Positions 16,729-61,901 of a stretch of 64,000 nucleotides of DNA are shown here, piece after piece. This stretch comes from Macrocystis pyrifera (taxonomy: Eukaryota > Sar > Phaeophyceae > Laminariales > Laminariaceae). The stretch is taken from assembly GCA_031763025.1 (NCBI GenBank), contig JASSKH010000037.1:1736001-1800000 (forward strand), written 5' to 3'. Each line of letters starts with the position of its first letter. The stretch's first letter is position 1. Below the pieces are notes generated by a model. That model was not told where the DNA came from. It was given only the letters and a program-made list of their open reading frames with translations, and did no database searches. Made by a program: the position numbers and the translations under genes.

Positions 16729-16841
16729 CTACGGGGGGAACATAGTAAACAGGACCTACGGTACACACAAACATCTATATATTTCCCTCTTTTTACTATT
16801 AATAACGGCATTTGGTCCTATTCACTATGGTCCTCCGTAAT
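16729..16841. mobile_element. MITE-1 copy carrying an internal TTAATA insertion
   Basis: Termini CTACGGGGGGAACATAGTAA and TTCACTATGGTCCTCCGTAA. Against sibling copies (for example 57053-57161, 59619-59728), the segment TTTTTACTA-AC reads TTTTTACTATTAATAAC here. That is an exact 6-bp insertion of TTAATA at a TA (16797-16804). This is key evidence for the footprint hypothesis. Confidence 0.9.
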
Positions 16842-17062
16842 GCGAATAGTCAAGTACCAAAAACGGTTTTCAACCCTATCACGACCGAGTGCTGTTATTA
16901 ATAGCGGCTTCAAAAACGGCAAGTGCGGTCTCGTGAACAGTCTATTTCCAAGAAGAGCGGCAGCAGCAGTATCAACCAGCTAGCCTCTTTTCGGGGACCC
17001 TGGGATAGGAGAACACGACATACAAGAAACCTCAATTTTCCGCCTACTATTTTTGCATATTT

Positions 17063-17408
17063 TTTTCTCACTTTTTTTTTTTTTTTTCTATTTTGTCATC
17101 ACTTTTTACTTTCCAGCTTAACTCGTTGGAGGTTATATGTACCCTCAGCGACCTTTCGGACAAGCCGTGGTCACAGGAGGTGTCGTCCCTTCTTCCCCCT
17201 CGGTACGTGCTCTCGTTTTTATCGCGCATAGGGCTCAGCATTCCCACTGCTCGTCGATTTCCATCGAACGTTGCTAACTCACGCTCTCGCGCTTTCCGCT
17301 AATCAATTTTTTATACAAGAAAAAGTCCCCGCGAGTATGCACTCGGTGAGAATCGAACCCACGAAATTGGTCTTCCTAAGCACGCAGACCACCTCCGGGG
17401 ACGCCGGC
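17063..17408 (-). mobile_element. tRNA-derived SINE, poly(A)-tailed, copy 2
   Basis: Same head and body as the copy at 1051-1391: GTGGGTTCGATTCTCACCGA in the head and CGACGAGCAGTGGGAATGCT in the body, with a T run (poly(A) on the minus strand) at 17069-17085. The tRNA-like part has lost about nine bases near the A box. A fragment of the body also occurs near 31325-31352. Confidence 0.75.
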
Positions 17409-17917
17409 GATACTGCGATACTGACAACTGACTGTGAGGGCCCGGCATCAAGTCTAACAATGGACGTTGGTACCTACAGAGGGGACCTCTAGTCCCGAAC
17501 GCACAATTGACTATTGATAGGGTCCCTTAATCCTTTGGAACTGCAGTCCGAGGAGGGTTGAAGGGGGTCATCTACTTAAAGCAGGTGTCATGATCATGCC
17601 GCTGCCTGTGCGTGGCGTACATTTCCTTACGTTGCTATTCGGGCACCCCCCCGCCTACCCCAGTACCCCAGCACCCCGACCTGCTTGGTGAATTATTAAT
17701 AAAAATAGCTGATACTACTGCTGTACGTATATACCACTTACTGTACAAGCAGTAAACTGGAATTGTCGTATGTTTCCGACACTTTTTCCCTGCCAGGTCC
17801 ACACGGGGTCGCGACCACTCCCGAATACCGAACCACAGCCAAAAGCCAACTCCGTAAAACATGATCCAACTCCCTCCGCCCCCCGTGCAAGTGGCGCATG
17901 GAACAACACGCACGTAT

Positions 17918-17918
<1 letters not shown>

Positions 17919-17951
<33 letters not shown>

Positions 17952-19707: not shown

Positions 19708-21068
19708 GGATGCTCATGAAAAAGTTGGCTCTAGTCTCTAAGAAATTGCCAGAACAGGGGTTTCACATACATTGCGCGGCGCGCCATTAAAGTCCGCGAA
19801 AGCTGTCCCGTGACGCATTAAATTTGCTCACGCTGCTCGAGGAAGAAGCGAGGCATCAGCATGTATCTGTGGTTGGGCGCAGCTGCTGGAAGATGAAGAC
19901 CTCTCTGACCCCACGAGCATTACAACTACCCTAGCCTTTTTTCTTGAGCTTCAGCAGTAGTCAAGCTATACTCCCTTACATCAAACGCCTGCAGAAAAAA
20001 CACAAAAACTGTATATTTTGATCCGGCGGACGATAAGAAGGGTAGCGATTCACAATCCAGTCGGAAAAAATTCCGATCGGAAACCGGTTTTTCAATCCAC
20101 GTTTCCGACTGCATAAGAATTGGCATTATACCTGAACAGTCGTTACATCTCCGGGCAGCCGTACCTGGTACACACAGCAGGAGTTACACTGTACAATTGT
20201 AATACGATTGACTTACATATAGCTACACAATCGCATCCAAACTATATGAAATGCTTTATGATGTAAATAGTGTAAAAATGCCAACTTACACACTAGAAAC
20301 CTCGGGCGACTGAGTGCGTATAATATCATACTAATGAAAAAACAACCAAACTAACCATTAGACAAAAATAACAAAAAATATATTTCATGATGTATAACCC
20401 GAGCGGCCAAAAATAAGGGGGGAAAGCAGCGAGGGGGCCAGAGCTCAGGCAAGCCTCTCAAGACAGAGCAGAGAGACAGACAGAACGGAGAACGGGGGAT
20501 GAATACCAAAAATTCTAGAATAAAAATAGAATAAAAGCATTTCTGGTACAGGAGCAGTGCATATTGAATATCATATCATGATATTAATAGTGTACCGACG
20601 TTGTTATGTCCCGGGTAGTCTCTCACATAGACCGATATATATATATGCAGTTTGTTTGCTCTCACATAAATTCAGAGCCAAAACCGAGTCCATGGTCACA
20701 CGATCGGCTCCAACAGCTTACGGTTAGGATCAGGCACTGCTGCGCCATCATCCTTCTCGAGGCCATGAGGCCATCGGTACTATGTACGAATAAATATGAT
20801 CCTGTTCACCACTTGTATATCAGACCGAATAGTAGGTGCTGCTGCTGTAGAACCTGTCTATGCTACTCGTGCCATAAACTGCTTCGGCTGCCTGGAGGGT
20901 GCTTTTTGTTTCGTTTTGGTTGTGCTCCGGTGTGCCTGTTCCTTCCTTTGGTTTCTAGTCTAGCTCGGTCTGAATGTGGTGGTTTTGTTTGTTTTGCTTG
21001 TTTTGGACTGTTGTCTGCCACTTGTCCTTCCGGGGGGCACCACACTTTTTTGGGTTTTTTTTCGATTG
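19708..21068. other. No gene recognised
   Basis: AT-rich, with short ORFs only. The plus-strand ORF 20606-21106 is Cys/Ser-rich with no recognisable domain and I do not accept it as a gene. Confidence 0.4.
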
Positions 21069-21071
21069 TTA

Positions 21072-21899: not shown

Positions 21900-24800
21900 A
21901 TATTTTTCGTCGTTCGTTTCGATTTTTGTCTCTCCTATGGAATGTGTCTGTCGTGCCTGTCGTATCCAGTATGACGACATGGCATTGCATTTGTCTACCA
22001 GGGTACTCTGCTTTTACTGCATATTATAACAATATACTAAAAATAATTATCTCTGTGGCGTAGTTTTGTGACCACAAAACTTGTACGATCTCTCTAGGAT
22101 TGAAGAATCGGCACGGACACCGGTTATGCTGGATGTCGACTAGTAGAAAGAACGGTTCACTACTGCTGTAATGTGTACACACCCTTGTTAATACTATTGA
22201 TACTGCTGTACTATTAATACTGCTGATGCTGTATGTTATATCCACTGCACCATACTATCACTGCACCATTTCTGTCATGAGAGCAAAAAAGAAATATTAC
22301 GCTGGCACGAAGGCAGCAGCATAACTATTATTCCATTTTGATCACGAAAAAAAAATCTATGAATGAAACAATCGTCTGTACATACGGTAGACGGCAGAGC
22401 AAGCCAGACCACTCTCTCCGCCCTGAGCATGAGCATCGAGCATGACATGACTGAAGCATGAACGAGTATCCGACATACGAAAACAACCAGAACATAACTG
22501 AATATTATTAAGGGTTTTAGCTACAGTATGTCGGTACAACATCCCCAACGTCGGCCAATAAGAGGGAGTAGACTCTTTTTATAAAATTGCTGCCATACTC
22601 GTTCCAAGGACACCATCAATATTAATACCAGTATTACCGATCCCGGGTGTGTGAGTCATTGTGTTATTATCGTGTTTTTGTTTTTCATATATTACCTGGT
22701 ACAGCTGAGTCACAGCTGACTACTGTAGGGCCTCTACATACAAGGCGGCAAGAACATGCGGCCGGTCGATCTAAGTCGGCCAAAATCCGGTATCACTCAT
22801 AACGGAAACTGCGAATATGTAGGCCGGTCCGCCCTTTTCAGGGCGGATACCGCCCTATTCCCGACCCATTCTGGCATCCACATCAGCATTAAACCTCGCT
22901 CTGCTGCTGCTCTTCTTAATATATGTATACTCGTACACCCTTACCGCTACTGCTGCTGCTCTGCTGCTGCGAGAGCACACATACCCCAGGCGCACAACGA
23001 GCAGCGGGGATAAGTACGACGCCTTGTGCGGCAGGCGAACTGGGTTTGATTCCAGACGGCGCCCCCGAGAGCCCCGACAGCCATAAATGTCGTGGAAAAT
23101 ACGGCAGTGGTCGTCTTACTTCGATTATGTGGGGAGGCCAACCCAGCCTGTGATGGCGTTCATCACAGCGCATGCCTCCAAGACAGTTGGACAGGCACAC
23201 ATGAGGGGTGTTTTTTACTCTCAACAAGCGGAAGGGGGGGGGGGGGCAGCGGGTTACGGTAGTGCACTATGAGCCAGATTACGGTCGTAGTGCATTACGA
23301 GTCAGTACTTCGGCATCGTAGTACAGGTTGGAGCTCTGCTGTCAATGTGTAGTTGTGCAAAGAGTCCTCTCCGTACCAAAGTATGGGTGTGTGTCTTCAG
23401 CGAGATCTGTCGCACGCAGCTTAATACTATACCAGGTACTCCGTAACATGGAACGTGCGTGGGCACTCGGCTGCTCTGCTGTGATATACCAGGTAGCATT
23501 ATACCAGACATGCGTTTGTCATCGCACGTGTTTAACGCTGTGTTACGTTTACTGGATTTAGCGCTGGTACTGCTGTCATGCTATTAATAAACCTTCCTTC
23601 TCCGAACACAAGTACCAGGTATCTCTTTTCGTGCGGCACCCTGGGTCCTCCTGCATCTGTTGGGTCAGAAGCGCATTGCATCGTACACTAAAACGCTGTT
23701 TTTTTCTCAGTCAGGCGGTCAATCCCCCAAAACTCCCTATATAACCGCCCTATATATCCATCCACCCTATTAATACCACATATTAATAATACTACTACTG
23801 CTGTAACACGAACGGGGCGGACTTTCCATACGAGGAGGTCAAAATTTCGTTGCACCACACCGCCTTATACAGGCCCCACTACTGCTGTACATGTAAACCT
23901 CTTCCAAATAAATTGATACGCGTAACCATCGGCATCCACCTCGTATAATATATACCATGTTACACTCGCAGCTAAAACCCAGCCAGTGTCCGTGGTGATT
24001 TTAAAATGGGGAAATACAAGCTCTATGGTCACAAACTGCGAGACCCGAATCAAGACAGCAATACTGCTACTGCCGTGGTAAAACAGTAGGCTACTGCTGT
24101 AGCTCACCAGAGTATACAGCAACAATATCACTGTACGATCATTAATAGACATATTACGTTGTTGTTCTCCTGTCCTCACATGACCCTAACCCTGCCCTAA
24201 TGCAACAAACATGCAATATGCTCGTGCACTACTGATAATATTGATAGAATAATACTACACTGCTGCTGCCGTATACCAGTACATCATACAGCAGTCAGTA
24301 CCAGTTCCATATAAAAAGGTACCCTGAGTGTGGCACCATACAAGATGATACCTGGTGCGTATGAAAGACCGGAACAACATACGGGACATGCAGATTTTCC
24401 ACACAGCCAGCACACAACAGACAAGCAAGAAGAAAGAGGGTACGGAAGGACCCCCCATGCCCCAATCAGATCCCGTATGTCCGCATCTGCTCACACACCC
24501 ATTTTAAGCGACTCACGACTCGGGGGTCACATCATTACTATCAATATTATCTGTTACAGAAAGCTTGAAAAAAAGAGAGCATCAACAGAATGGTGATATC
24601 ATCCATTCTGATATTTCTCCAATCGCAAATCGCCAAGGGAGGCAGCCGACAAACGTCAGATTTGGGCACGAACCCCGACGAAACCAAACACACCCACGGG
24701 CCAACAGGGGGGGAGGTGCGCTGACAAGAGTGCACACGGCCGCAGGATGGTGGTAGGCGGTATTACACGTAGGACGTAGTTTTGGTACGTAACGGTCAAC

Positions 24801-27085
24801 AGTAGTAGTAGTTTACTACGTTACTGCAGCACAATAATGAGAGGCACGCCACATACGCAGGCAAAGGAGTACCGCAGTATTCAAGGTGTACGTATGTGTA
24901 CACGCCTGAGGCCTGTGACACAACTGCTGTGTAGGCTGTAGAAGCGACATGCATGGTGCTATTAATGTCAATAATCGCTGTCTGCGCTTCACTTTCGTTC
25001 ACAGGCAGTTACAGGGTACTACGGTATTTATAGCCTTTTTTCGCCACCGCGCTCCACTACGCGCAATCCCTACGCACTACCCACTCTGCTACGAAATTAT
25101 TCCTATACTCTCGTCTAGAAAGTACACAGGAAATCGAAGTACTGCTGTAACAAACCACGTAGCCCACACACGGGGTACACGTACGCCTCACCAGGTACGT
25201 CGAACACCACGAGTTTAGGAATTAGGACGGACGGTGTGGCAATAGTTTTTTGTTTTGTTTTTTGGAGGCTGTCCTGTGTGTGACTCCAGACTAGATTTTT
25301 GGCGATGAGGTGTATGTATAATATGAGAACAAAGAACAACAAGAACGTACGCAACATCCAGCGGTAGTGATGATTGATTGATGTACTTTTAATTAATAAT
25401 AAAACTAGTAAAATAATGCAAGGACCAATCACGTGCCGACGTGACCGGGTCACGATTGACAATCTCGTGCAGTAGGAGAGCAGAGCTTCGTATACCAGGT
25501 ATCAAGCATACGTATTCTATATACGTAAAAGAGGGCTCGTAATCGTCCATACAGGGGCACAGGAGGCTACGGTAGGCATTATTACTTGTAGTAGACAACA
25601 GCTGGGCATGCTGCCAAAAAGCTAGCAAGAAATCTCCAGCGGCCCAACATAAGACCGAACCATCGAGCAAAGCAACAAACTGCCACGGGCACAGCAGTGT
25701 TGCCGTGGCTACGCAATACCAAGACAAGTGGTATGCATGATATTAATTAATAGGTCTTCGATTCAACAAAAACGACCAGCGAATCACGAATATCGCTTTC
25801 CTTTGGGCGCAAAGCACCATCCACTACCCGCAGCTGTGCAAATGACCACACAAGAGGGCAAAAATAACAAAATAACGAACGCAATACACACACGCCCAAA
25901 TGCATTCCAGCTTTGGGTTGTAGAAGAAAATAAAAATTGTTCGTGTATTGTTTCACTTCACAACCAACAGCAAGGCAACATGTACCAGTACGTACGTACA
26001 TCTAACCGAATTTTATGACAGATGAAAGCGAAACACTACGCACACGACAATATTACTTTCATCAAGTATCAAGTACCAGGTACCCAGTATCACGTTGAAG
26101 CTTCGAAGCAGAAGGGCTCACAAAGAAGCGCACGGTCTGAAATCGGGGAGGATGGTCAAGGTCGTCGCGAAGAGAGCATTCAACCCCATCCCTGGCGGCC
26201 AACCCAAACCGCGCGCTATATAATTTCAGTCAAAAACGCCTCCAACAGTAGAAGAGCCCCCAAGCAACAACACCGGGCGGGTATATAGCCTGCATATCGA
26301 ATACTAATCCATTGTAAAGCTACTATTAATACTTGGTGCTATTGTAATTAAAGGCGGTGTATACTTGCTGTAGGTGCTATTCGCAGCATTTGAGCTTGGC
26401 CGCGAGGAAGCGGGGGAAAGTTGTCGGGAGGCTTGATCGATGAAGATGCCACATCTGCGTTTAACCTATCCAAATATATATCAAACACTAAAAAACGAGC
26501 GGTTTCGGACAAATATGCCCCGCGTGGGAAGGGAAGACAAGATAGTCCACGAAATGGTCAACGAAATCGTACGCGTCGGTATACTGTACCTGGTATAGAA
26601 TACCAACCTGGTACTCGTACGAACGCCATTATATGAACATAACAGATACCATTATTATTAATAATAGCAAAGAGGCAGAAGGAACACAAATACATGTGTG
26701 TATCATGTATTAAGTCTCGTATGCCAGGTACATATACTTCTGCTGTAGCAATAGCGCTAGGTCAGGCAACCGAAAAGGGGTACTCGCGTACCCGTCCAAT
26801 ATCAACAGTATTAATAGTATGATGCAATGTACTGGTGCACATCGATCACCATGGGGTGGTCGACGCGGTGATTGCTCGCAGTACATTGGTTGCGTTTCTT
26901 TCAACAGCAAGGGTCGGGATGCCTCCAGCGCCTGAGGGAGCGAAAGCCTTGCTTGATGTATTTTATTCATATATACTGCTGCAGTTTCGTCTCCCAGAGC
27001 AAGTCGGCGAATTTCAAGTCAAATGCCGAACCAACCCCGCCTCGCCTCTCGTATCACATAATGCCGTAACCAAATCACATCATAC
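21900..27085. other. No confident gene; AT-rich region rich in TA-flanked words
   Basis: A 5-kb region with an especially high density of TATTAATA, TACCWGGTA and CTACTGCTGTA words (for example 22192-22225, 23428-23620, 23760-23815, 26323-26330). A possible minus-strand exon reads FGLAARDGVECSLRDDLDHP (about 26215-26125, acceptor TATATAG, donor GTGAGC), but nothing supports it beyond an open frame. Confidence 0.35.
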
Positions 27086-34016: not shown

Positions 34017-35606
34017 CACACTAGTAATAGTAAATGTTATTAATACTAGTAATCAGAATCCTCGATGGAACCCAAAAAATGCGTTGTCCCGTACTTGAGT
34101 GTGTTTTTACGAACCACATATGGTTCTGAATGCTATCCTTCCCCATCGTAGTTTTTGTGAGGTTAACCACTACGATTTTAATCGACAGCCGGGGGCTCCG
34201 GCTGGCCAACCTACTATTACGGGGGACCATAGTAAATAGGACGTACGGTGCACACAGACACCTATATATTTCCCTATTTTTACTGACAATATCTGGTCCT
34301 ATTTACTATGATGGTCCCCCGTAATAATAGTCATAACTACGTTAAGAGCGTTGAGTTGACACACGGATGCGATCGTTTTCCAGCGCTCGGTTTTTCAGAA
34401 CGAGAAGGTTGCCAAGAATACCGAACAAGAACCGAATAAGGTGTTTTCGGAAAGATCTGGTCGAGATAGAGAGCCTTCCGAAAACGTAATGCTCGGCTTT
34501 TTAGTAGCACTCTTCTTGCCGTTGTCGAGAAAACTATCAATATACCTATATAGCGCTGAAAAACGATCGCACCCTTCGGCGAACTCAACGCTCGTTGCGG
34601 TATACCTGATGTATGAATAGCTAATCACACCCCGGTAGTAATCACTGACTGCACCTGTGATATACACCTGGGTATATGAATAGCTAGTCATACCCTCTGG
34701 TAGTGATCACTGATTACACCTGTGATATACACGCTGGTCGGTAAGTGACGTTCGTTTCCCCCCGCCTCCTGCCATTAACCCTCTGGGTGCCCGAAAAGCG
34801 AGAGGTGCTGCCTGTGCACTTTTCAACCGTCTACAGCAGTACACCGACAGCGTGCAGCAGCAGTACCGGTACACAAAGTGGTCCCTCTATATACTGGTAG
34901 TGCCGGTGCTGTATGCGCCAGCCAAGCCAACAGTCAACAAGACCGGCCCTATTCATAGCGGCAACCGGCACTAATTACTCCGCACACTGCCACACTGGTT
35001 AATCCCGTACAGCATGTGCCAAGTGATTTCACCGGCAATATATAGGGCAGTCGGCAGTACTCAACCGGCACTATATAGGGCAGCCGGCACAACTCAACCG
35101 GCACTATATAGGGCAGCCGGTACTACTCAACCGGCACTATATAGGGCAGCCGGCACTACTCAACCCGCACTATATAGGCCAGCCGGCACTACATTGCGGC
35201 CACTACGACTGTATAATATCATCGTGCTGAGCGCGTGTCGTGTATAATATGTATCACACTGGTATTTGAGGCTCCTTGTCTTGCACTTGGGACACTGTTA
35301 ATACTATTGGTGTTATTAATACTATTAATAGTGCTGGAAGCCGGTCGCCCCGGTAGTTCAGTGGTACCCTCGAAAGATGCTACTGACTGCTGTAGAGTTG
35401 ATTCCGTGAGTTCAAATCCCACCGTGCGTGGTGATAAATTCTGTATTTTCAAGAAGAAAAGAAAAAAGGAACCAACCGCTTGAGAGCGCGTAGCGTCGGC
35501 GAACGCAATTCGGCGCGAGTTGACGCGGGAAGAAATGGCTAAAGTCTTCCCGCGATAAAAATGAAGGCACGCACCGTACAAAGTGGGGACCGGGGTGGGG
35601 GGGGGT

Positions 35607-47724: not shown

Positions 47725-50700
47725 CGGTGAACATGAGAAACGAATATCGCGGCATGCATGCAATCCGTCCCTCCCCTCTGTATCGAAAAACGCCTTACGT
47801 GGCGTTTGACCCCCCCTCCCCTCCCCTCCCCCCCTGTATATTATCGAGACTCGTATATCACACACACCCTGTAAAATTTCGAAAAGCGCCTTACTCGGTA
47901 TGTACCCCCCCCTCCCCCCCTGTACAATGTCGAGAAGCCATTCAGCACGTAGCACAGACAAGCTTTGTAGTATCGGATCGAAAAAATTAGATAGCTCCCT
48001 TCGTGGCCATGCAACCCCCCTCTCCGTACGAATCGTATACCATTTTGCGGCATGTAACACCCCACCCCCTGCATGACATCGAAAAGCGCCTTGCGCAACA
48101 TGTAACACCCCTCCTCCCCCCCAGTGCACATCGAAGAACACCTTAGACGGCACATAACGCCACCCTCCCCCTGGTATAATATCGAAAAACGCCTTGCGCG
48201 ACATGTAACACCCCCCCCCCCCCTGTATACGATCGAAGAACGCCTTCGTCAGCGGCATTTAACACCCCCCCTCCTCTCCCCCTCCCACATCCCGACTCTG
48301 CCTTCCGCCGTGCAGGACCTCTGGGACTCTTTCCTGAGGATGCTCGATCCGGTGGCCTCGCGCTTGCCATGTATGGTCGCCGCCGGCAATCACGAAATCG
48401 AGGCAGGAACGACAAAGGGGGGGCCCTTCGCTGCCTACGAACACCGCTTCCGGATGCCCTCCGCAGGGCCTCCGTCCAGGGGTTTCCACTGCGGCGTTGC
48501 GGGGGGGCTGGACGGGAATGAGACGGCTTGCGGCCCAGGTCTGAACGATCTGCGGGCTTTGAAGGCTGCCACTGAGGCTGCGGAGGCGGGACTGGATGGG
48601 GAGGGGGTGGCGGAGGCGGCGTTACGAGCTAGGGAGGCTATTATTCCTTTTAGAGGGGAGGTGGTGACGACGGGCTGGCCGAAGAAGGAAGGCGGGAGTG
48701 AAAGAGGGGGGGGGGAGGGGATGGAGGGGGGGCAGGAAGACTCGCAGCCTAAGTGCGCCCCGTCGGAGTGGTCGGGGACGTACGATTACGGCAACAGGTG
48801 GGTTGTAGTTGTTGTTGGTGGTGGGGATGGTTGAAGTAGTGGTAGGGGTGATTGTGGTGGTGGGTGGTGGTGATGTTGATGTGGTGATGCTGTGATGATT
48901 TTGTGGTGGTGGCGGTGGAAGTGGTGATGGTGGTGCTGGTGCTGCTGCTGTGCTGCTGCTGGTGCTGCTGGTGCTGTTCATGATGTGCCGGTATTGATGT
49001 TGTTGCAGTTGTTGGTGACGATGATGTGGACTGTGTTTTTGTTGGTGATTATGTTGTTGATGGTGTTGTTGTGTTTCCCTCAAATCAACATCTCGTGGCC
49101 ATATGGTGATAGTCTAGCGAACGGACGCAAGACAGCCAAGCAGGCTCTAACATGTAATTGGAAGTGCGCCGAAGGTGCACAGGACAAGCACAAGCCAACA
49201 TCCAACATCGGGTGCTTAAAAAGGGTGGGGTGTCGGAACCATCGCGAACGGGAGCCACGCCCGCCCCCCTCATGCACCCACCATTTTGCGTAGCGCGTCG
49301 AACGCATGTTTTTTTTTTCTCCAAGCCCCGTCCGACCCCACCCGCCTGCCCGCCCCTCCTGTTCGACGGTGTGTGGTTGCATTTTTTTTTGGTGCAGTTT
49401 CTACAGCTTCGATGTGGCGAGCGTTCACGTGGTGGTCATGAACCCGTACACGGCAACAGGCGAAGGCTCTTTGCAACACTCGTGGCTCGTCGAGGTATAG
49501 ATGATATGATACACAGCAGTGCCTGGTACTTTTCGTTTGCGCTGAGCCGTTACGTTTTGTGACTTGCCTCCCTGAAGATGGGATACGTAGGAAGTATTTG
49601 TGGGTCTCCGCCCGCCGCTCAGCTCTGTCGGCCTCTCACTCAGGTCAACGGCGGCACTGTTCGGTGGATATGCGTGCCCATTTGAAGACCACCTCGGGAC
49701 AGGCGATTTAGCCGAGTTTATCTCTAATATGGTCCCTATCTTTTACCACTGAAAAATCGATCCCAGATGCTAGTTCCAAGTCGTCTTTTTTTTCTCGTGA
49801 CAAGCCGATTTACCTGGTTTTATCCACCCAAATGTCTTGGACCGGAGGGCTTTAAAGTGGGTGTACCTCTAACTCTATCCCCTTCAGGGCTGCCGTCCCG
49901 TTTTGGGGGCTGTTTTTTTTTAGGAATTACTCGTAAGGCCGTTGTTATCGGAAAGTTTTTTTTTTTTCCGAAAATTCGAAAATTCCAATTTCTGAAAAAT
50001 TTGGAAATTTGTATAAAGATAAGGAGGCGTTCTGTCGCGATGTTGTGAAATGTGACAGAGGGCAAACTGTCAGGAAACTTAAACTTCACACGTGTTTGAG
50101 AAAAACAAAATCGGGAAAATCTGGAGGATGAAAAATTGCGCGAAACAAAAACCCCTCGAACTTCTGGATGTAAGTACAGGTCTCCGGCAGTGATGGCCCT
50201 CAGATACATGTTTATGTGCGGTGTGCGCAGAATTTAAAAGGGCTAGCCCTCCAAGGACTGGAGTCCCGTTCGGGAGACAAACCACTAAATTACATGTTTA
50301 TGTGCAGTGCAATACTCAAAGAATGTCGTATTACGGGGAACCATAGTAAATAGGACCTACGGTACACACAAAAACCTAGATATTTCCCTATTTTTACATA
50401 CAATTTTGGTCCCGTTTGCTATGGTTGCCCGTAATAGTGGTGGAACCCGAGTATGGCATGAAGGTAAGGGCATGGCATGAAGTAATATTACGGGGACCAT
50501 AGTAAATGGGACCAAATTTTGTTAGTAAAAATAGGAAAATATATAGGTTTTTGTGTTTACCGTAGGTCCTATTTACTATGGTCCTCCGTAATATATGAAC
50601 TGGCTAGGAAGGCAGCTTCTCTTGTTTAGGGGACTTCTTGTCGTTGTATTAGTATAATTAATGGTCCTCTTCATGATGAGAGATGGAAGGGAGCTAACTG

Positions 50701-53700
50701 TTGAGAGTGATTCGAGGGGGGCTTGATTCAAGGCATCAAGCCCGCGCTGCTCTCAATCCATTTATCCGCTACCTGGTAGACGGGTAAAGACACTTGTCCG
50801 AGGAACTGTGCTGGAGTGTTTTTGTCTACTCTACTCCTATCGGCTGTCCCAATCATTGTACTGCAAGGGAAACTTCAGAGCTCCGGGAACATTCTTCGGG
50901 TGTTAACAGGGCTTTGCTGCTACGGTACGGCTGTCCCATGACCATGTTATAGTCCAGTACAACTCCAATATCGCCAAGGTAAAGCTTTTTATTAATATTA
51001 TTAGTACTACACAGTAGTCTCGTTTCGGGCACAAACTATTACGGGGACCATAGTAAATAGGGACAAATATTGTCGTTAAAAATAGCGAAATATACAGGTT
51101 TTTGTGTGTACCGTAGGTCCTATTTAATGTGGCCCCCCGTAATCATCTGGAATTTGAGTGGTTTGTCCCCAGAAAGGGACTGAGTGCAGTTTGCCCTCAA
51201 AGGGTTGAGATAGGGCATAATGCCTTATTTTATGATAGTACTCTTGCTGCAGGAACTCTCGCTGTGGTGGTGGATGTTTCTACAAGGCGTGCCTTACTGC
51301 TGTCGTCACCTGTGTGCGCTGGTGCAAGGCAGTCAACCCTTCTTGGGCTGTTCTTAATAGCACTGCAGCCCCGGTTTGGGGATAAAGCACTCAAATTATG
51401 AGGAATTTGGTCCACCAGACGGGACATCAGCACTAAAAGTGTTGAAAAAACACGTTTTTTTTTTTTTTTTGGAGATTTTGGTTCGTACGGCGCGGATCTC
51501 CGGCTTCATATTTTCTGTAATGGTATACCTGGTACCCTGTAGTACAGGGAGGAAAAACAAAAAAAAACACGGCTGTGAGATCGAAAATTCACTCCAAACT
51601 CATTTTTGTAAGCTTGGGTGTGACAATTCGATCGCCGCGTTTTCCGGGGTGTGTAGGTTTTTTGGAGTGATGCACAAAAAATTACGGTTTTGAAAGCAAC
51701 GAATTCGCTATTAAATACCTATTTTACCAAGCAAGCCATAATGGGCTATTGTTGAGGATCTCCAGGTTCACCTACCTAAAAAGTATGGGCATGTCCTATA
51801 TTTTTGGTGGCTGTGCTAATTACAAGCAGCACCTCTCACCCGTACGAATCTGAAAAGTAGGGCATGTCCTATAACTACAGCAGTAGTATAACAGGCTGCT
51901 GTATAAATTTTCTTTATACTCGTACGTATGAAGCTATGAAGCTCAAAAATTACCCTCTTGTGTCGCAGGCGGTTGCGTAAATTTCCAGCTCGTATCCCGG
52001 GTATACAAAGCTAAAAAGTAACCCATGCCCTATTTTTGAGACGGCTTAAGTATTTTTTTGCAACTCATACGTACGGTACGCAAGTAGTTTGTTTTTTTTT
52101 TGCTCTCCCTTTTTTTTGGCCCCCGTGCGGATGTCACGGTCTATTAGTCGTAGCCCTTCCATTACAGAGGACCATAGTAAATAGGACCCACGGTACACAC
52201 AAAAACCTATATATTTCCCTATTATTACCAAGACTATTTGGTCCTATTTACTATGGTCCCCCGCAATATGACATTACCGCAGCAGTCCCGTTTTGGGGCC
52301 AAACTACTTGGACTTAGGGTAGCTTGGCCCAAAAAGGGGACTACGGCAGTTCTATGAACAAGAAGGGCCAAGGAGCCCACGGTTGTGCCTGTCGATACGA
52401 GTTGCTTACGCTGGCGCCTGAAACCGCCTTAATCCCTTTAGTACCGCAGTCCCGATTTGGGTACAAACCAGTCTATTTCCAAGTGATTCGTCCCCAAAAC
52501 GGGACCGCGGTACTGAAAGGGTTAAGGCGAAGGTGTCGGAGCGCCCGGGTTGGTCGGCCCATCGGACTGAAACGCGTTATCTGAAAACTTGGAAGAATGC
52601 TCGCAAGAAGCATGAACGTGCGTGAATGCCTGTGCGCGCAGTGCTCCTCTCGTTTTAGACTCTCGGGTGTGTATTCAAAAGTATTGCACCTGAAAAGTTA
52701 TCGTAACCCGTCGGTATCAAGTCGGCCAACTACTGCTGTGCTGCTGCTGTAGGTTTTTTCGGTGGTGGATTGGTGCTCGCGTATCTGCACCGGTGGAACA
52801 GGCGTATACGTACGCCTCTAGGCTGCACGCGGAAGAAGTCGGACGAATTTTTTATACCGCTCACGACACCAGGTCGGTCGTTTACTCCCCCTCCCCTTCC
52901 CCCTCCCCCTCCCCCTCCACCCCCCTCCTGGCCAATGGTCAATTGACTAAGGCAAGCAAGAAATGAGTGCGTTCCCCTCCCCGGCCGCTGTTACGATTTG
53001 TTCCTGTCGACTTTTGCTGCAATCGGGGGGGCAGGATTTGAACGCTTGCGACCGCTCCTTGACCCCGTGGGTAGTGGCGATGTTTCACTGCCCGTGGTAC
53101 AACTCGAACTTGGAACACCAAAGCGAGAGGATGGCGACTACGGCGATGCGCGCAATGGAGCCCGTGCTGTCCCATCACAAGGCGGCCTTCCTCATCTCTG
53201 GCCATGTGCACGGTGAGAGAGGGAGATATTTTGCACCCTTTTGCCGCGTTCGGTATTGCTTGCTGCCCGATTTTCATGATTTATCGATTCGGTGGCGGGC
53301 AACACACCCTTTTGCCGCTTTCGGTATTGCTGTCCGATTTACCAATTTTACCGATTCGGTGGGAGGCACACCCTTTGTTCACACTCTCGGCATTGCTGCG
53401 CATTTTACTGATTCGGTGGGGGGCAACACTCTTTTTACCGCTTTAGGTATTGCTGCGCAGTTTACCGATTCGGTGGGCGGCAACACCCTTTTTTCCGATT
53501 TCGGCATTGCTGTCCGATTCACCAATTTATCGATTCGGTCGGGGGCGACACCCTTTTTTTTTTCCGCCATCGCTATCATCACCGTCCGATTTACTGGTTT
53601 ACAGATTCGGTGGGGGGCATGGGGGAGACACTGGGAACGAAAGGGTTCGGCTTGCACTCGTTTTTTCTTCTGGAGTAATCACACGGCACGATAGCATTAT

Positions 53701-56055
53701 TTCGGGGACCATAGTTAATAGGACCTACGATGCACACGAACACCCATATATTTCCATATTTTTACCAACAATATTTGGTCCTACTTACTATGGCCCCCCG
53801 TAGTAGTACTTCTGAATGCCGCTGCTGCGGACACCAGATCCTATCCCCTAGATGGTATGGTATTATTATCACAATATTCCTGCTTAATGCTATGGGTTCT
53901 AGGTCCTATCCCCTAGATGGCATGGTATTTTCATCACAATAGTCGTGTTTTAATGCTATGGATACCGGGTCCTATCCCCGAGATGGTACCGGGTCATTTA
54001 TCACAATAGTCATGTTTTAGTGCTATGGATACCAGGTCCAATCCCCTAGATGGTACTGCCTCATTATCACAATATTCCTGCTTAAGGCCGTGGATACCAG
54101 GTCCTATCCCCTAGATGGTACCGCCTGATTATCACAATAGTCCTGCTTGATGCTTTGGGATCCAGGGCCTATGTCCTAGATGGTATCGCCTTCTTATCAC
54201 AATAGTCCTGCTTAAGGCCGTGGATACCAGGTCCTATCCCCTAGATGGTACCGCCTTATTATCACAATATACCTGTTTAATACTATAAGGCTATCAAATC
54301 CTTCCCCCTCCCAGGTAGACGATACCGCCTCTTTATCAAAATAAACCTGTTTAATGCTATGGACTCCATTTTCCCATCCCCTAGATGGTACCGCCTCAAA
54401 GAGACCTACCTACCTGCTGCGAGACTGCCGTCCCACACCGCATACAGCTGATTGGCGGACAGCTGATTGGCGGACGGAATCGCGCGTCGCTCCCGCTGAC
54501 GAACGCCTCTCGCAGCCTGTGATATAGCTTGCAGAATTGCCAACTGCTACGACGCGAGAAAAAAATGTCCGTGCTCAGCCTTTGTTCAACTACAGTACAG
54601 CCCGGTCTAGGTGACAGACTAGTGTAGTTGATACCCTCATACCTGATACCATACTACCAGGTAGTTTTATTCCGTTCAGTTCAGATATTAACCGTTTGGG
54701 ATAGATGATTGTTGGATGGATAAGTTTTTGGGTGATTTTTTTTCGGACGCGTGAGATACCATTGAGGTCGTACTTTTTTCGGGTTTTTTTTTTTTTTTTT
54801 TTCACGGACGGGGCTCCTTGATCATTTTAGGACCGCGAAAAATCTCTTTAGATCAGTTTTGGGGACAAACTGCACTGCTTGGAATTTGAGTGGTTTTTTC
54901 CCCAAAACGGGACTGCAGTACCAAGGGTTAAGAAGGGTTAAGAGCACCGAAAACACTACCCATTGTCGTTCACCTTTGCCCTGCTTTTCGTCCTGCACGT
55001 AGGCCATGGGCGTATTCATCCGGTTGCCCGCTCGGTTTTTTTTTTTCCCCCCCCAGTAGAGTAGTACGGCCATGCATGAGATCGAGTACATCTCTCCTGT
55101 CGAGTACACCCCCCCCAATAGAGTAGTTTTTAGATGAGGTGTGGGGCTCCTCGAAAAAGAGGCTCACTGAAAGAATGGTGCTCGTGCTCCCTGCCTGCCC
55201 TAGAAGGGGGCATTTTGCTGTCGTGAGAGAGGGTTTGCCGTGGAACACGCTTAGCCGCCGGCATCAGAGGGTCCGCCGTTATGTCCGATCGAAATGCAGC
55301 AATGCTGCTGTATATTACTGGGGAACATGCAGTAGCAACCAGAACCCGTTGGTCGTGCTCAGGGACACGATGCGTAGATTGAGGAGTTCTATGCTGGATA
55401 GGGATTCTGGTAGTGGGGTATATATTGGGATGTCGGGATAATGTGTGTGCCTCCTGGTGTCACTCGTTGTGTAGGTCCTTGTCAGGCGAGTCAACTCGAC
55501 GGCTCGGGAACAGTACGAGAAGAGAGAGTTCCGACTTACTGTCTGGAGCCAACCACGCTTTCCCGTGCCAGCTCCGTCTATTACTCCTTCAGAGATAAAT
55601 TAACATAACCAAACATGGCGTGTGTGCATAGGGGATACCTAGTTTTTGGGTATATCGTGGGTCTTGATTACTACCAGGTATGTATTACTCAAGTAGTACT
55701 ATGGAACCCCGTAATAGCTGGTAATTAATAAGCGCAACCGATACTCGCCCCCCCCCCCCCCTCGCCTCCCACTTCATCCCCCCAGTTCACCCCCACTGCT
55801 GTCTCTGGAAGTGGCCACACCGGAAATTAAATCGGCTCAATGAAGCTGTCATCCACGTGCAAGCCTGCCTCACAAGCGGTTTTCTTAGTAGGATGCAGCT
55901 CACCCTTCATGCGACTCGCCGAACATCTCACGGCGCTTCGCGCTTGGTGCAGGCAATGTCTGCCTGGTCGGTGAAAACCCGACGTGTTCCGTCCCGGCAT
56001 TGTAGGGATTCGAGGGTCTATGGTCATACGACTACGGCCATGCATGATATCGAGT

Positions 56056-56095: not shown

Positions 56096-58031
56096 CCACC
56101 CCCCACTTGACCCCTACACCGTCCCCACCCCAGCGCACCCAACACCCCCCCCGGGCCATGCATGATAATGAGTAAACCCCCCCCCCCTCCCCCCTCCCAC
56201 TTCATCCCCCAGCCCAGCCCACCTTCCCAACCCCCCACCCCCCATCGACCCCCCCCCCCCCCCCCCACCTCCCCACCCCGCCCCACCCCCGCGCGCGCGC
56301 ATGTTTTTGCATGCCGTCTTCGGCATATGATAGCGTACGAGCGGTCGTTGCCAGTTTTGAGAGGTCAGCTTGCTGAAGGTGGATCGGTAAGCGTCATCGT
56401 CGGGGGCTCTGGAAACCGCGAAAATCATGACCGTGAGTAACGAGTACCAACTTTTTGATGGCTTGGAAAGAGGGAAGGGTGCCAGATGTTCGCAGGGAGG
56501 GGACGATAGGCATGCGTCCCCTGTTATAACGCCTGGCAAGTTTCCACAATCACCCGCTCGGTTGACTCCACCTATGTGCAGCCTCATCCTGCACAAAACT
56601 TTGTGCAGGATGCGGGTGTTATTGGTCAGGGCGGGTATTTCGGCTTCCCGGCGTTTTTTTTGGAAAAACGCCACCTAAACACGCGGCGGAGCCGGGTGAC
56701 TGCCCCTGCCGACCTCGAGCTCCCCAAAGGGTTGGGATTCGGTTCGGGTTAGGGTTCGGGTTAGGGTCAGGCCTGGGGTTGGGTTGGGATGATCTGGGTC
56801 CACGTGCAAGGTCGAAAATGACGACGCACGCCCTGCACAAAGCTATGTGCAGGATGCAGCTGCACATAGCGGGCACCGCTCCGGCTGTGGACAGCGGTTT
56901 CCACTTGTTGTTGTTCTCACATTAACTCATCGCCAAAGCAATGCAATGCCTTCTGTGGTCGCAGGACAGGCTCCAATAACTCTGTCTGGAGTGGAAGAAC
57001 AATACCTCGGTAGAAATAGAAAACAAGCAAAGAATAATTTACGTGATAACCCTATTACGGGGGACCATAGTAAATAGGACCTACGGTACACACTAAAACC
57101 TATATGTTTCAGTATTTTTACTGACAATATTTGGTCCTATTTACCATAGCCCCCCGTAATAGCACATATATACCTCGGACAAAAGCAGTGTCCGGTTGTA
57201 GCCGAGCGGTTTCCATCTCCTCCGTGCTATTAATAGCCTTGATGCACAAAAATAGTCTCGACAGCTCTAAATATTCGATTCGAAACCTACGTACGAGGCG
57301 TGTCGCGGAAGGGGGCGCGCGCGCGGGGGTGGGGGGGGGGGGGGGGGGGGGCTACTCATTGTCATGCATTGTGTCTGCTTTTGTTTTTGTTTTCTCTCTC
57401 CCTCTTAGTCGTATAACTATGATCCGGGGTCACAACACAGGCTCTCCTCCTCCCCCCCCCTTCCCCCTACAATATTGTTCGTGCCTTCCACTTTTGTCGC
57501 GATAATACTTCAGCCATTTCTTCCCTCGTCGACTTGTGTCGATTTATGTTTCGTAGTCGTATGACCGTAGACCCTCTCATCCCCACAATGCCGGGACATA
57601 GCACGTAGGGGGTGTACTCGATAGGAGAGGTGTACTCGATCTCATGCATGGCCGTAGTCGTATGACCATAGACCCTCGCATCCCTACAATGCCGGGACGG
57701 AGCACGTCGGGTTTTCACCGACCAGGCAGACATTGCTTGCACCAAAGCGCGACCAAGCGCCGTGAGGTGTCCGGCGTGTCGCGTGAAGGGTGAGCTGCAT
57801 CCTACTAAGAACCGCCTGCGAGGCGGACTTGCATATGGATGACAGCTTCAATGAGTTAGTTTAATTTCCGGTGTGACCACTTCCAGAGACAGCAATGGGA
57901 GTACACTATGTAACTGCCTCTTGGGTGCCTTACCTTGAACACTACGTGATACGATCAATTCCCTTGTGCAGAGTAAAGGTTCTTTACCTCGCACAATTGA
58001 TCTCACTCGACAACCAGCTGTGGGCGACCGC

Positions 58032-58063: not shown

Positions 58064-61000
58064 GGTACCCTGGTTGTCTAGCTCACGTAGTGAGCGGCAT
58101 GTTTTACAGTGTCGTTGCCAACCGACGCCAACCCAACCCGTATAATAGGGAGCAGGCGGGGGGCGGGGATACTCGGTGTCACGCATGGCCGTACATAGAT
58201 AGCCATATGACCTTCGGCCCTCGCATCCCTGTGTATCTATGCGATTCAGGGCAGGAACACGCCGGGTTTTGACCGACCAGGCAGGCATTGTTTGCACCAA
58301 GCGCGAAGCGCCGTGAAGTGTTCGACGAGTCGCATGAGGGGTGACCTGCTGCATACTGCTAAGGAACCGCTTGTTGGGCGGGCGGGCTTCGGTACCTTGT
58401 GCGTAGTTTCTTGCATATGGATGGCAGCGTCGAATTAGTTGTCGGACCCAAACTGTTCTGAAAGGCTGTGACGGGGCTCCCGTCAGCTGAGCAATATTTG
58501 CAATTAATTTTGTCCAACACGTTTCCAGCGGTCCCATTTTCCTAATATACAATAGTTGCAATCCCTTCGCCCAATATTATTTGCAATCCCATTTGGGCCA
58601 AAATTGTTCTTAAATCCCATTTTCCTAATATACAATAGTTGCAGTCCCTTCGCCCAAATATTATTTGCAATCCCATTTGGGCCAAAATTGTTCTCAAATC
58701 CCATTTTCCTAGTATACAATAGTTGCAGTCCCTTCGCCCAAATATTATTTGCAATCCCATTTGGGCCAAAATTGTTCTCAAATCCCATTTTCCTAATATA
58801 CAATAGTTGCAGTCCCTTCGCCCAAATATTATTTGCAATCCCATTTGGGCCAAAATTGTTCTTAAATGACGGGACGCTTCGTCTGAATAACTGCCTATAG
58901 CAATACATTCATTTGAACATACCAGGTACTCAAATATGTTGCCATCCCATGTTTAGTAGTGTTCTACTACGTATTATATTGCGTGCGTGATTCGCCTACT
59001 TTGAATGGGCCTGGGGAATCGGGCTCTTCCGCGCTTTTGGAATCTCGTGATGGAACAACAGCCTTAGGGTATAAATACTTTTGGTGTGGGAACTTACCAC
59101 CACGAAAAGAAATCTCCGCTTTTTTTTTTTTTTGTTCCAAGGAACCTCACAAAAAAAACAGGCTTCGTACGAATATAAGTATATGCCAAGGTAAACATTT
59201 TGTGTATATTATAATTATTATAACATAATATGTATACATACATACATCCCGCTCTGTCCTTAAATATAAGGACCATTTTAATACTAATATTACATCAAAA
59301 AGGTCGCTGTATTTAGGAACAGAATGGTACCTATCACGGGGGACCGAGTTTTAGTGTGGGAACTAAGCCACCACACGAAAAATCTTTTTTTTTTTTTTTC
59401 CGTGTCTTCTTGTTTTTCTGTGCCTTCAAACTCAGCGCACGCAGCAGTCGACGGCAGTAAGGCAGATACATTTATCACGAAAATATCCACTACTGCTGCT
59501 GTAGCGCGAATTCCTGGCGAGAGTAAGGCGCATGCCTTGTCATTTGTTCCCCCTTACTACCTGGACCTCTCCTCTTCTGCCTCTTACTTATACCCGCATT
59601 ACTACCGTACAGTATTAATATTACGGGGGTCTATAGTTAACAGGACCTATGGCATACATAAAAAACTATATATTTACCTTGTTTTTACTAACAATATTTG
59701 GTCCTGTTAACTATGGACCCCCGTAATAGTACCTTCAACGTTCCTTACCGCTGTGGTGTACCCTGCCGAAGTCCTCGCGAGAATTTTGGGCGGGTACCCG
59801 GGTACTCCTCCAACAGCTGGACAGCTGGGTTCTTGTGTGTGGGTGTGTGGGGGGGGGGGTGTACTCGATAGGAGAGATGTACTCGATCTCATGCATGACC
59901 GTAGTCGTATGACCATAGACCCTCGCATCCCCACAATGCCGGGACGGAGCATGTCGGGTTTTCACCGACCAGGCAGACATTGCTTGCACCAAGCGCGAAG
60001 CGCCGTGAGGTGTCCGGCGAGTCGCATGAAGGGTGAGCTGCATCCTACTAAGAACCGCTTGTGAGGCGGACTTGCATATGGATGACAGCTTCATTGAGTT
60101 AGTTTAATTTCCGGTGTGGCCACTTCCAGAGACAGCAATGGGAGTACTATGTAACTGCCTCTTGTGGGGGGGGGGTACTTATTATCATGCATGGCCGTAG
60201 TCGTATGACCATAGACCCTCCCTCGCATCCCTACAATGCCGGGACGGAGCACGTCGGGTTTTCACCGACCAAGCAGACATTGCTTGCTCCAAGCGCGCTT
60301 GAAGGGTGAGCTGCATCCTACTAAGAACCGCTTTTGAGACGGATTTTGTTGCGTATGGATGACAGCATGGATGAATCGATTTAATTTCTGGTGGGGAGGG
60401 GGGAGAGAGAAGAGCTTGCTGTGTGACCTCGGATCTGAGTTACGACTGCGAGTAGGAGAGAGAAAGAAAAGAAGACGGGCGAAGGAGATAAATGGGATGG
60501 AAAAACACACACACACACACTGGTCAGTCAGTCAGATACAAAGACGCAGATTACTAGAAGATGGCCAATCGCCATACCAGGTGCCTAGTACAAATCTTTG
60601 TCAATTATTGCCCGACGCAACCACAATTTAACCTCGTGATACCAGTGATATATACATGTCAACAACTGTAATACCTAGCTAACCAATAGCTAGTCTGCAA
60701 CTTGAATGTACTTGTATATATTTCGGGGGTCCATAGGTAATGGGACCAAATTTTGTTAGAAAAAATAGGTAAATATATAGTTTTTCATGTATGCCATATG
60801 TCCTATTAACTACGGACCCCCGCAATAGTATATTGCGCCTGTTGTTTTGTGCTCGTTATCCTTCTAGAATATGGAAGCGCTTTTTTTTTTCTTTGGCCTG
60901 TTTAGATACCACGGGGCAGGTTTCAGGGAAAATGAGACAGTTGATAGTGCGAACATCATCGTCATGAGTTAGCCGACTCACGGCTCTAGTTCCGATCCCT

Positions 61001-61133: not shown

Positions 61134-61140
61134 GTGAGAG

Positions 61141-61530
61141 CTGAGCCCCCCCGCATGATACTGAGTACCCCCCCCCCCCCCCCCCCCCCCCCCCTACGTG
61201 CTATGTCCCGGCATTGTGGAGATGCGAGAGTGTACGGCCTTACCACTAAGGTCATGCATGACATGAGCACACACACGCGCCTATCCTGTATGAAGTCATT
61301 CAGCGCTGTCATCCATGCGCAAGAACGTACGCGTAAGGGGCCGAAGTCCGCCTCACGAGCGGTTCTTAGTAGGACGCAGCTCGCCGTTCATGCGACTCGC
61401 CGAACACCTCACGGCGATGTCGTGCTTGATGCGAGCGATGTCTGCCTGGTCCGTGAAAACCCGACGTGCTCCGTCCCGGCGTTGTAGGGATGCGAGGACC
61501 TTACGACTACAGCCATGCATGATATCGAGT

Positions 61531-61573
<43 letters not shown>
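61141..61573 (+). mobile_element. Head-to-tail run of three poly(C)-tailed SINE-like copies
   Basis: Tail fragment (61148-61192, CATGATACTGAGTAC then C), partial copy (61193-61295) and a longer copy (61308-61573, with GTCCGCCTCACGAGCGGTTC to ATATCGAGTAC and a 42-nt C tail). All on the plus strand. The run starts 8 bp after the PAP exon 8 donor. Confidence 0.8.
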
Positions 61574-61639
61574 TTAGTCGTGCCTTGTGAGAATGGAAGG
61601 CGTGCTGTCCCCCCTCCCCGTATCACCAGAAAACAAATC

Positions 61640-61901
61640 AATGCATTCGAAGCTGTGGTCCATATGCAAGTCCGCCTCGCAAGCTGTTCTCAGTAGGATG
61701 CAGCTCACCTTTCATGCGACTCGCCCAACACCTCACGTTTCGCTTCGCGCTTACTTATGGTACAATCGATGTTTGACTGGTCGGCGAAAACACAGCATGC
61801 TCCGTCCCGGCATTGTAGGGATGCGAGGGTCTATGTTTATACGACTACTGCTGTACGGCCATGCATGACATGATGAATGAGTACCCCCCCCCCCCCCCCC
61901 C
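61640..61901 (+). mobile_element. Poly(C)-tailed SINE-like element with TGCTGTAC insertion
   Basis: Family sequence from AAGTCCGCCTCGCAAGCTGT to GAATGAGTAC and C tail. Where other copies read GACTACGGCC, this reads GACTACTGCTGTACGGCC (61844-61860), an 8-bp insertion that turns TA into TACTGCTGTA. Confidence 0.85.

Follow-up and report, generated by a model that had tools for sequence, protein, structure and literature searches.

In a 64,000-nucleotide stretch of Macrocystis pyrifera DNA (C127:1736001-1800000, hereafter the window), three short words that begin and end in TA occur far more often than expected. Two of these, TATTAATA (the TTAA word) and TACCWGGTA (the CCWGG word; TACCTGGTA on the forward strand, TACCAGGTA when the word lies on the reverse strand), we read, with a probability of roughly 0.9, as the excision footprints of two small TA-targeting transposon families, formed by a mariner-type cut and repair of the resulting three-base tails. 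An initial annotation, made from the letters alone, had proposed this origin for all three words; parent ends, flanks and remnant lengths speak for it in two cases, and the third, TACTGCTGTA (the CTGCTG word), is left without a parent.

Expected counts were taken from an order-2 Markov model for the window and an order-3 model for a 264-kb sample (the window plus 20 stretches of 10 kb from the same contig); for the genome (537,376,219 bases in 223 contigs) each word read backwards served as the control. The assembly description gives a haploid female gametophyte, 537 Mb in 223 contigs, the largest of 26 Mb, and a GC (guanine plus cytosine) content of 50.37% (PMC10498591). The window contains 31 copies of TATTAATA against 0.59 expected, 24 of TACCWGGTA (14 CCTGG and 10 CCAGG) against 0.6, and 14 of TACTGCTGTA (nine, plus five of its complement) against 0.21; a longer form of the last, CTACTGCTGTA, is present seven times, with three complements. 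The sample yields 79 (7.4 expected), 80 (2.3) and 38 (1.7), respectively, and the genome 94,130 (7,522 for the reversed word, 12.5x), 121,279 (2,421, 50x) and 59,709 (1,062, 56x). The over-representation first seen by eye is thus present in window, sample and genome alike, with genome-wide counts nowhere near expectation, and the letters reported for each of the original examples are in place. Together, the three words amount to about 1 per 2 kb, an excess over the reversed words of ~264,000 genome-wide.

The words are widely spread: of 26 bins of 10 kb, only 5, 3 and 7 are without TATTAATA, TACCWGGTA and TACTGCTGTA, respectively. In the sample, TATTAATA and TACCWGGTA head the over-represented TA-flanked 8- and 9-mers, and TACAGCAGTA ranks second among 10-mers, behind a microsatellite concentrated in L019, where a TACATACATA array reaches 304 words per 10 kb. 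They are not parts of one larger repeat, because the flanks of the window sites, as judged by eye from the printed flanks, are mostly unrelated.

Parent elements and target signatures

The proposed parents are two miniature inverted-repeat transposable elements (MITEs). MITE-1 measures ~105 bp between its TAs (TTACGGGGGWCC...CCCCCGTAA) and begins TA-TTACGGGGG; MITE-3 measures ~79 bp (CCACTCTGTCCGGAAATATAAG...GGACAGAGTGG) and begins TA-CCACTCTGTCC. Both are near-palindromic, and their termini are as originally read, TT..AA and CCA..TGG. The middle bases of the words match these resident TA-flanked ends, TTAA that of TTACGGGGG and CCWGG that of CCACTCTGTCC. Genome-wide, the MITE-1 end TATTACGGGG has 71,328 exact occurrences (reversed word, 559), and the MITE-3 end TACCACTCTGTCC has 8,677 when up to one mismatch is allowed (reversed word, 514). 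The 264 kb contain 41 copies of MITE-1, some partial, and 19 of MITE-3, some weak; the 18 MITE-3 copies that were aligned diverge from their consensus by 25% on average. A second MITE-3 end at a TA (at most four mismatches) was present in 15 of 40 fetched ends, 13 of these pairs being 77-79 bp long; five of the 15 two-ended copies lie within one larger repeat.

Some elements occupy a TA that belongs to an earlier scar, as if it had been re-used (window 59613, L029, L022:5719 and L086), MITE-3 after TACCWGG and MITE-1 after TATTAA. A further MITE-like repeat, whose ends read TTAACCCTTTTAGGACTGCAGTCCCGTTTTGGGG... (window 52444-52510, 11980-12047, 1897-1963 and others; L010, L022), is suggestive of a TTAA-targeting, piggyBac-like family.

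Flanks were compared as log-odds over the eight bases outside the TA, with all TA sites as background (n = 11,982), using 62 deduplicated MITE-1 ends, 54 of 62 MITE-3 ends, 150 flanks of TTAA words and 148 of CCWGG words. Each word's flanks match those of its own proposed parent and not those of the other: r was 0.83 for MITE-1 with TTAA (bootstrap 0.55-0.83) and 0.78 for MITE-3 with CCWGG (bootstrap 0.42-0.80; 0.63 with just the 24 flanks from two-ended MITE-3 copies), as against -0.09 for MITE-1 with CCWGG and -0.21 for MITE-3 with TTAA. MITE-1 and the TTAA word have in common T at -3 (0.60 and 0.56), A at -2 (0.54 and 0.54) and C at -1 (37/62, or 0.59, and 72/150, or 0.48). MITE-3 and the CCWGG word have in common T at -7 (0.49 and 0.44), A at -6 (0.54 and 0.40) and A or G at -1 (47/54 and 114/148), T at the last position being almost absent (0.04 and 0.05). 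A score built from both MITEs separates TTAA from CCWGG words with an area under the receiver operating characteristic curve of 0.82 (p 1e-21), both flanks of each site, which are non-independent, being counted; with one flank per site, the split between C and A/G gives a Fisher p = 5e-6. Local density is only loosely parent-specific, with rho 0.62 for TTAA and MITE-1, 0.37 (p 0.06) for CCWGG and MITE-3, and 0.52 for the two words with each other.

The same words beside the same target signature would also be predicted if integration at TA were aborted and repaired, the full element never having been present, and the words do exceed the resident copies in the sample (79 to 41 for MITE-1, 80 to 19 for MITE-3). 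Such an excess is, however, also expected if each element moves several times, and we know of no documented abortive integration route that leaves words of this kind. Excision footprints of such form are described for mariner and Stowaway elements in passages of PMC4561436 and PMC1925063, and we regard aborted integration as very unlikely.

The words are also found inserted into other repeats. The joined flanks of each word site were searched for a version with plain TA, and such paralogues exist at five of the places (16797, 46643, 39587, 50770 and 61846) where the initial annotation had seen TA turned into a word; their numbers are given in Table 1. Duplicated TA on both sides is part of the definition of the words, and the change from TA to TA-X-TA is seen in repeats. 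The double insertion reported at 45355-45373 in a MITE-1 copy is present in the profile alignment, and CCTGG occupies the same internal TA in the MITE-1 copies of L011 and L024. In the repeat R350, two window copies have the word, and none of 17 further copies does (12 with plain TA, three with CA or TG, two with other short inserts). The flanks of the two copies are near-identical, and both probably go back to a single event. The three window copies of R350 (39450-40840, 50610-51000) have in common a second insertion, TA to TACGGTA, which is absent from the 17 others (L032-L048); where the word-bearing copies have CCTGG, L048 reads TACGTA.

Words that are very frequent and partly palindromic might likewise come from a quirk of composition, or from motifs that have a function or are under selection (origins, sites of protein binding, restriction or modification). 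Both Markov models and the reversed words predict far fewer, however; the words come into repeats by insertion at TA, and the bases beside them show the target preference of one given MITE. This explanation is barely credible.

Remnant lengths, repair and known systems

Remnants of each parent were counted in the 264 kb as TA, i bases of one end, j bases of the other and TA (a row for a further repeat, MITE-4, is void, its ends having been misplaced). The kept length behaves as one set by a staggered cut: the sample counts given above make the 3+2 remnant of MITE-3 35-fold and the TTAA remnant of MITE-1 10-fold enriched, the 3+3 remnants number 0 against 0.4 expected for each MITE, and symmetric 4+4 and 5+5 remnants number 0 for both.

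If the words are excision footprints, a mariner-type transposase would insert the element at a TA and duplicate it, and staggered excision would leave the duplicated TA and, on either side, a single-stranded tail of three bases derived from the end of the element, the gap being closed by non-homologous end joining, mostly in one way per family. The tails of MITE-1, TTA, could pair by a two-base TA overlap to give TA-TTAA-TA; those of MITE-3, CCA, would meet with a mispaired A:A, resolved either way to TA-CCAGG-TA or TA-CCTGG-TA, while CCAG, CCGG and CG would be shorter, trimmed MITE-3 joins. We infer the 3-base stagger and the repair route, and one cut with one repair route would suffice for the words of both families.

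The products resemble the footprints of Tc1/mariner elements such as Sleeping Beauty in their duplicated TA, at most three terminal bases per side and non-homologous end joining, and the minor word TACWGTA has what we take to be the Sleeping Beauty footprint form. Unlike those of Sleeping Beauty, the kelp footprints were counted and not observed forming, they consist mainly of 4- or 5-base products, and their number is the excess of ~264,000 for three words, two of them with a parent. Further in, MITE-3 presumably bears a looser likeness to Stowaway ends. At the terminus, its CCACTCTGTCC differs from the Stowaway CTCCCTC given in PMC4423477. Passages of PMC7827188 describe 3-base 3′ overhangs for Sleeping Beauty/mariner excision, with a footprint equal to the overhang, and passages of PMC1925063 describe the Stowaway elements of Triticeae as short MITEs flanked by TA and linked to mariner-like transposases, with 1-4 bases of the ends remaining next to the duplicated TA. 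In rice, 8 of 94 excisions over all superfamilies left just two target copies, the others showing deletions or filler (PMC4423477); kelp, in contrast, has very many exact short products, a word count being blind to messy events.

Ectocarpus, also a brown alga, has 17 Mariner-Tc1 families with almost 12,000 copies, mostly non-autonomous, and the main text of that paper uses neither of the terms footprint and excision (PMC12477816). Among the matches listed from open-licence PMC papers, no title or abstract reported a genome whose dominant words are footprints. The excision chemistry belongs to a known superfamily; the scale, and the assignment of parents by flank, are unusual.

Contrary evidence and the search for a transposase

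A number of observations weigh against excision as the source of the words, or narrow what can be drawn from it. There is no single clean length peak. Shorter MITE-3 remnants are enriched ~2- to 4-fold (TACGTA, 159 against 68 expected; TACSGTA, 70 against 35; TACCAGTA, 28 against 12; TACCGGTA, 13 against 3.5), and the excess of TACGTA is as large in number as that of CCWGG; repair would therefore be biased to one product and not wholly fixed. Because their flanks are MITE-3-like, TACCAGTA, TACCGGTA and TACGTA are probably trimmed MITE-3 scars (r 0.78, 0.64 and 0.63 with MITE-3; -0.07, -0.29 and -0.20 with MITE-1), those of TACSGTA being hardly so (r 0.26). TATTATA, a possible by-product of MITE-1, stands at 71 against 44 expected, and its flanks are closer to MITE-3 (0.48) than to MITE-1 (0.14).

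Loss of MITEs by replication slippage or hairpin deletion between the inverted ends, with no transposase and few end bases left, would fit such shorter remnants and their partly MITE-3-like flanks, as it would the near-palindromic form of both MITEs; deletion also leaves end bases at the MITE's own site, and so the flank match fits as well. A graded spread would then be expected, instead of the jumps to 35-fold at 3+2 and 10-fold at TTAA beside nothing at 3+3, 4+4 or 5+5, and we consider this route quite unlikely.

Two of the five control words in the flank test also gave appreciable correlations. TACGAGTA, itself enriched in the 264 kb (49 against 11.7 expected), reached r 0.59 with MITE-3, so that with MITE-3 an r of about 0.6 does not by itself amount to proof. 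The near-word control TATCAATA/TATTGATA reached 0.58 with MITE-1, and may contain decayed scars because it is one change from TATTAATA. The remaining three stayed at or below 0.33 with both parent sets, one of them giving 0.53 against the 24-flank subset. For 25 of the 40 MITE-3 ends retrieved, the fetched piece contained no partner end, and seven of the 40 come from a single larger repeat.

Plain-TA paralogues were found for just 5/85 TATTAATA, 7/88 CCWGG and 1/38 TACTGCTGTA sites, the best identity being at least 0.86 in eight of these 13 and 0.68-0.71 in five. Control words gave 3/22 (TATTGATA) and 17/24 (TAGGWCCTA, which is frequent because it is part of the MITE-1 interior), and the paralogue test supports single cases, not rates. 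When the sample was compared with itself, 7-base gaps without TA ends filled 29 position bins against 4 distinct TACCWGGTA sites, and most small gaps were not TA-words; TACCGTA gaps, all from one tandem array in L007, were not used. No single site was found full, empty and scarred, the comparison of footprint with plain TA being one between paralogues only. Recent tandem duplicates on C1 had no fresh events, every compared word and MITE having been kept: CCWGG at two sites in 5/5, and TATTAATA and MITE-1 in 6/6, with 4/10 aligned rows (L099-L102) excluded as non-homologous from the TATTAATA comparison. Being kept in all copies, the scars in these duplicates are older than the duplications.

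For TACTGCTGTA, enriched 56-fold, no parent was found, and symmetric ends cannot give this word because the mixed forms CTGCAG (1 in the 264 kb) and CAGCTG (0) are nearly absent. Its flanks correlate with those of TACWGTA at r 0.83 over the last four positions, which suggests that the CTGCTG and CWG words may have one common parent whose ends are CTG...CTG; scanning for ends of this kind returned none. The flanks of both words lean to MITE-1 (0.37 and 0.52 over eight positions). We surmise a third, unseen family. Triplet slippage of TACTGTA is not supported as a source of CTGCTG, the series for n = 1, 2, 3 and 4 running 101, 38, 4 and 0, and the CCG series 73 and then 0. MITE-4 (CTGCGGTCCCG...) was rejected as a TA-C.G parent: its inverted repeat extends outward to TTAACCCTTTT, and it more closely resembles an element that targets TTAA. 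The inverted repeats L008 (CTG...CAG) and L018 (CAT...ATG) were dropped on the same grounds.

The initial annotation looked to a Tc1/mariner-type transposase gene with matching ends, and this was borne out in part: mariner-like coding sequence lies between MITE-3-type ends, and none is tied to MITE-1. The element concerned (C195:12649230-12651108; 1,879 bp) has ends beginning CCACTCTGTCC that are identical in 45/45 bases, and its interior matches the C-terminal half of a mariner-like protein encoded at L105 (64% identity, residues 51-221 of 223), 479 inner bases lying outside the compared sequence. Because transposase coding sequence lies between them, MITE-3-type ends belong to mariner-like transposons, the exact source of the MITE-3 copies being unfound. 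The left flank of the C195 element is TG and not TA (the other side is TA). Its ends, and those of L029, a relative of 941 bp that is non-coding and 89.6-94.8% alike over three long stretches, have only the 11 bases CCACTCTGTCC in common with the 79-bp MITE-3 and then differ, and their longer end occurs at just 6 places genome-wide.

The L105 locus on C211 came from a genome search with HTH_Tnp_Tc3_2, which scored above the cut-off there, the open reading frame (ORF) itself reaching 30.9 against 31.5 bits. Its protein is weakly similar to Mos1 (phmmer E 0.03) and has 26 genome matches, including the C195 element. Counting from the second D of this protein, a conserved D follows after 34 residues and another after 39; we take these to be the spacings of animal and plant mariner-like transposases, either of which may apply. 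L105 (C211:5829800-5834000) comprises a pair of mariner-like elements in head-to-head orientation that are 98.6% identical and are bordered by a 126-base direct repeat, possibly a recent event.

For MITE-1, no matching transposase-coding element was found: a genome search with Pfam DDE_3 gave none (its control matched in 3/14 genomes), and of 39 matches to DDE_1 (pogo-like), the four loci examined (L089, L090, L103, L104) are without MITE ends. PF01359 had no match in the genome and none in the controls either. The DDE_1 genes of L090, L103 and L104 lie in duplicated stretches of >3.5 kb, 98.5-99.7% identical, on small contigs.

Implications and other features of the window

Excision normally leaves little trace, and footprints as uniform and abundant as these would allow the movement of elements to be counted, and the rules of transposase cutting and end joining to be inferred from sequence, in an organism with few genetic tools. 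Vanished families would be recognisable by word and flank. There is also a warning, in that some of the commonest short motifs of kelp would be transposon scars and not regulatory sites. More tentatively, and with some doubt on our part, the genome might be a readable ledger in which a TA-targeting family is recorded chiefly by one word of its own, dictated by the pairing possible between its 3-base tails, and by the family's target signature alongside. Past excisions, several hundred thousand in number and including those of nearly vanished families, could then be assigned to families and dated; excision breaks in kelp would be end-joined near-uniformly and rarely restored from the sister or homologue, perhaps owing to the haploid phase; and TACTGCTGTA would stand for a family, now lost or rare, whose two ends differ.

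Table 1. MITE copies and TA-flanked words located in the window.
Feature	Position	Strand	Remarks
MITE-1 copy	2179..2287		
MITE-1 copy	3189..3296		
MITE-1 copy	5346..5460		
MITE-1 copy, weak	6651..6746		
MITE-1 copy	7836..7943		
MITE-1 copy	16734..16841		contains TATTAATA
MITE-1 copy	34215..34326		
MITE-1 copy	36889..36995		
MITE-1 copy	41328..41442		
MITE-1 copy	43789..43897		
MITE-1 copy	44144..44252		
MITE-1 copy	45307..45429		contains TACCAGGTA + TACGTACGTA
MITE-1 copy	50329..50436		
MITE-1 copy	50486..50593		
MITE-1 copy	51037..51143		
MITE-1 copy	52161..52268		
MITE-1 copy	53699..53805		
MITE-1 copy	57053..57161		
MITE-1 copy	59619..59728		
MITE-1 copy	60719..60827		
MITE-3 copy, diverged	6570..6645		
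MITE-3 copy, diverged	14449..14528		
MITE-3 copy	29401..29493		two ends, TA-CCACT...AGTGG-TA
MITE-3 copy	59249..59329		
MITE-3 copy	63306..63384		
MITE-3 copy, diverged	63707..63784		
TATTAATA	4332..4339		exact word
TATTAATA	8211..8218		exact word
TATTAATA	8273..8280		exact word
TATTAATA	8592..8599		exact word
TATTAATA	16797..16804		within MITE-1 copy; plain-TA paralogues 24
TATTAATA	16896..16903		exact word
TATTAATA	17694..17701		exact word
TATTAATA	20582..20589		exact word
TATTAATA	22212..22219		exact word
TATTAATA	22620..22627		exact word
TATTAATA	23582..23589		exact word
TATTAATA	23768..23775		exact word
TATTAATA	23781..23788		exact word
TATTAATA	26324..26331		exact word
TATTAATA	26656..26663		exact word
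TATTAATA	26809..26816		exact word
TATTAATA	30639..30646		overlaps TACCTGGTA at 30645
TATTAATA	31175..31182		exact word
TATTAATA	31649..31656		exact word
TATTAATA	34038..34045		exact word
TATTAATA	35314..35321		exact word
TATTAATA	35323..35330		exact word
TATTAATA	39479..39486		exact word
TATTAATA	42355..42362		exact word
TATTAATA	44608..44615		exact word
TATTAATA	44621..44628		exact word
TATTAATA	46643..46650		within repeat (initially read as 3' end of a long interspersed nuclear element, LINE); plain-TA paralogues 11
TATTAATA	50990..50997		exact word
TATTAATA	57228..57235		exact word
TATTAATA	59613..59620		second TA is left TA of MITE-1 copy
TATTAATA	62237..62244		exact word
TACCTGGTA	4266..4274	+	exact word
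TACCTGGTA	4285..4293	+	exact word
TACCTGGTA	20162..20170	+	exact word
TACCTGGTA	22693..22701	+	exact word
TACCTGGTA	23430..23438	-	TACCAGGTA on +
TACCTGGTA	23487..23495	-	TACCAGGTA on +
TACCTGGTA	23613..23621	-	TACCAGGTA on +
TACCTGGTA	25493..25501	-	TACCAGGTA on +
TACCTGGTA	26074..26082	-	TACCAGGTA on +
TACCTGGTA	26587..26595	+	exact word
TACCTGGTA	29945..29953	+	exact word
TACCTGGTA	30645..30653	+	exact word; overlaps TATTAATA at 30639
TACCTGGTA	31234..31242	+	exact word
TACCTGGTA	36706..36714	-	TACCAGGTA on +
TACCTGGTA	38449..38457	+	exact word
TACCTGGTA	39587..39595	+	within R350 copy; plain-TA paralogues 11
TACCTGGTA	42343..42351	+	exact word
TACCTGGTA	43491..43499	+	exact word
TACCTGGTA	45355..45363	-	TACCAGGTA on +, then TACGTACGTA; within MITE-1 copy
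TACCTGGTA	50770..50778	+	within R350 copy; plain-TA paralogues 11
TACCTGGTA	51526..51534	+	exact word
TACCTGGTA	54655..54663	-	TACCAGGTA on +
TACCTGGTA	55672..55680	-	TACCAGGTA on +
TACCTGGTA	58920..58928	-	TACCAGGTA on +
TACTGCTGTA	2486..2495	+	exact word
TACTGCTGTA	15434..15443	-	exact word
TACTGCTGTA	17716..17725	+	exact word
TACTGCTGTA	22161..22170	+	exact word
TACTGCTGTA	22201..22210	+	exact word
TACTGCTGTA	23796..23805	+	exact word
TACTGCTGTA	23880..23889	+	exact word
TACTGCTGTA	24092..24101	+	exact word
TACTGCTGTA	25140..25149	+	exact word
TACTGCTGTA	34832..34841	-	exact word
TACTGCTGTA	38313..38322	-	exact word
TACTGCTGTA	43768..43777	-	exact word
TACTGCTGTA	51876..51885	-	exact word
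TACTGCTGTA	61846..61855	+	within repeat (initially read as short interspersed nuclear element, SINE-like); plain-TA paralogues 18

Three of the TATTAATA copies (8211, 8273 and 8592) lie within one long open frame (7918-8787), where a 6-base insertion would preserve the frame. A search of a phage collection with the first 8 kb of the window gave no match. Pieces of a calcineurin-like phosphoesterase gene are located at 48106-48834 and 52951-53694; the second matches Pfam Metallophos (E 3e-4), the first has no Pfam match and was assigned by eye, and the phosphatase ORF had no match in the genome contig search. At 46672-47126 there is a 455-base C-rich, homopolymer-like run with 90% matches.

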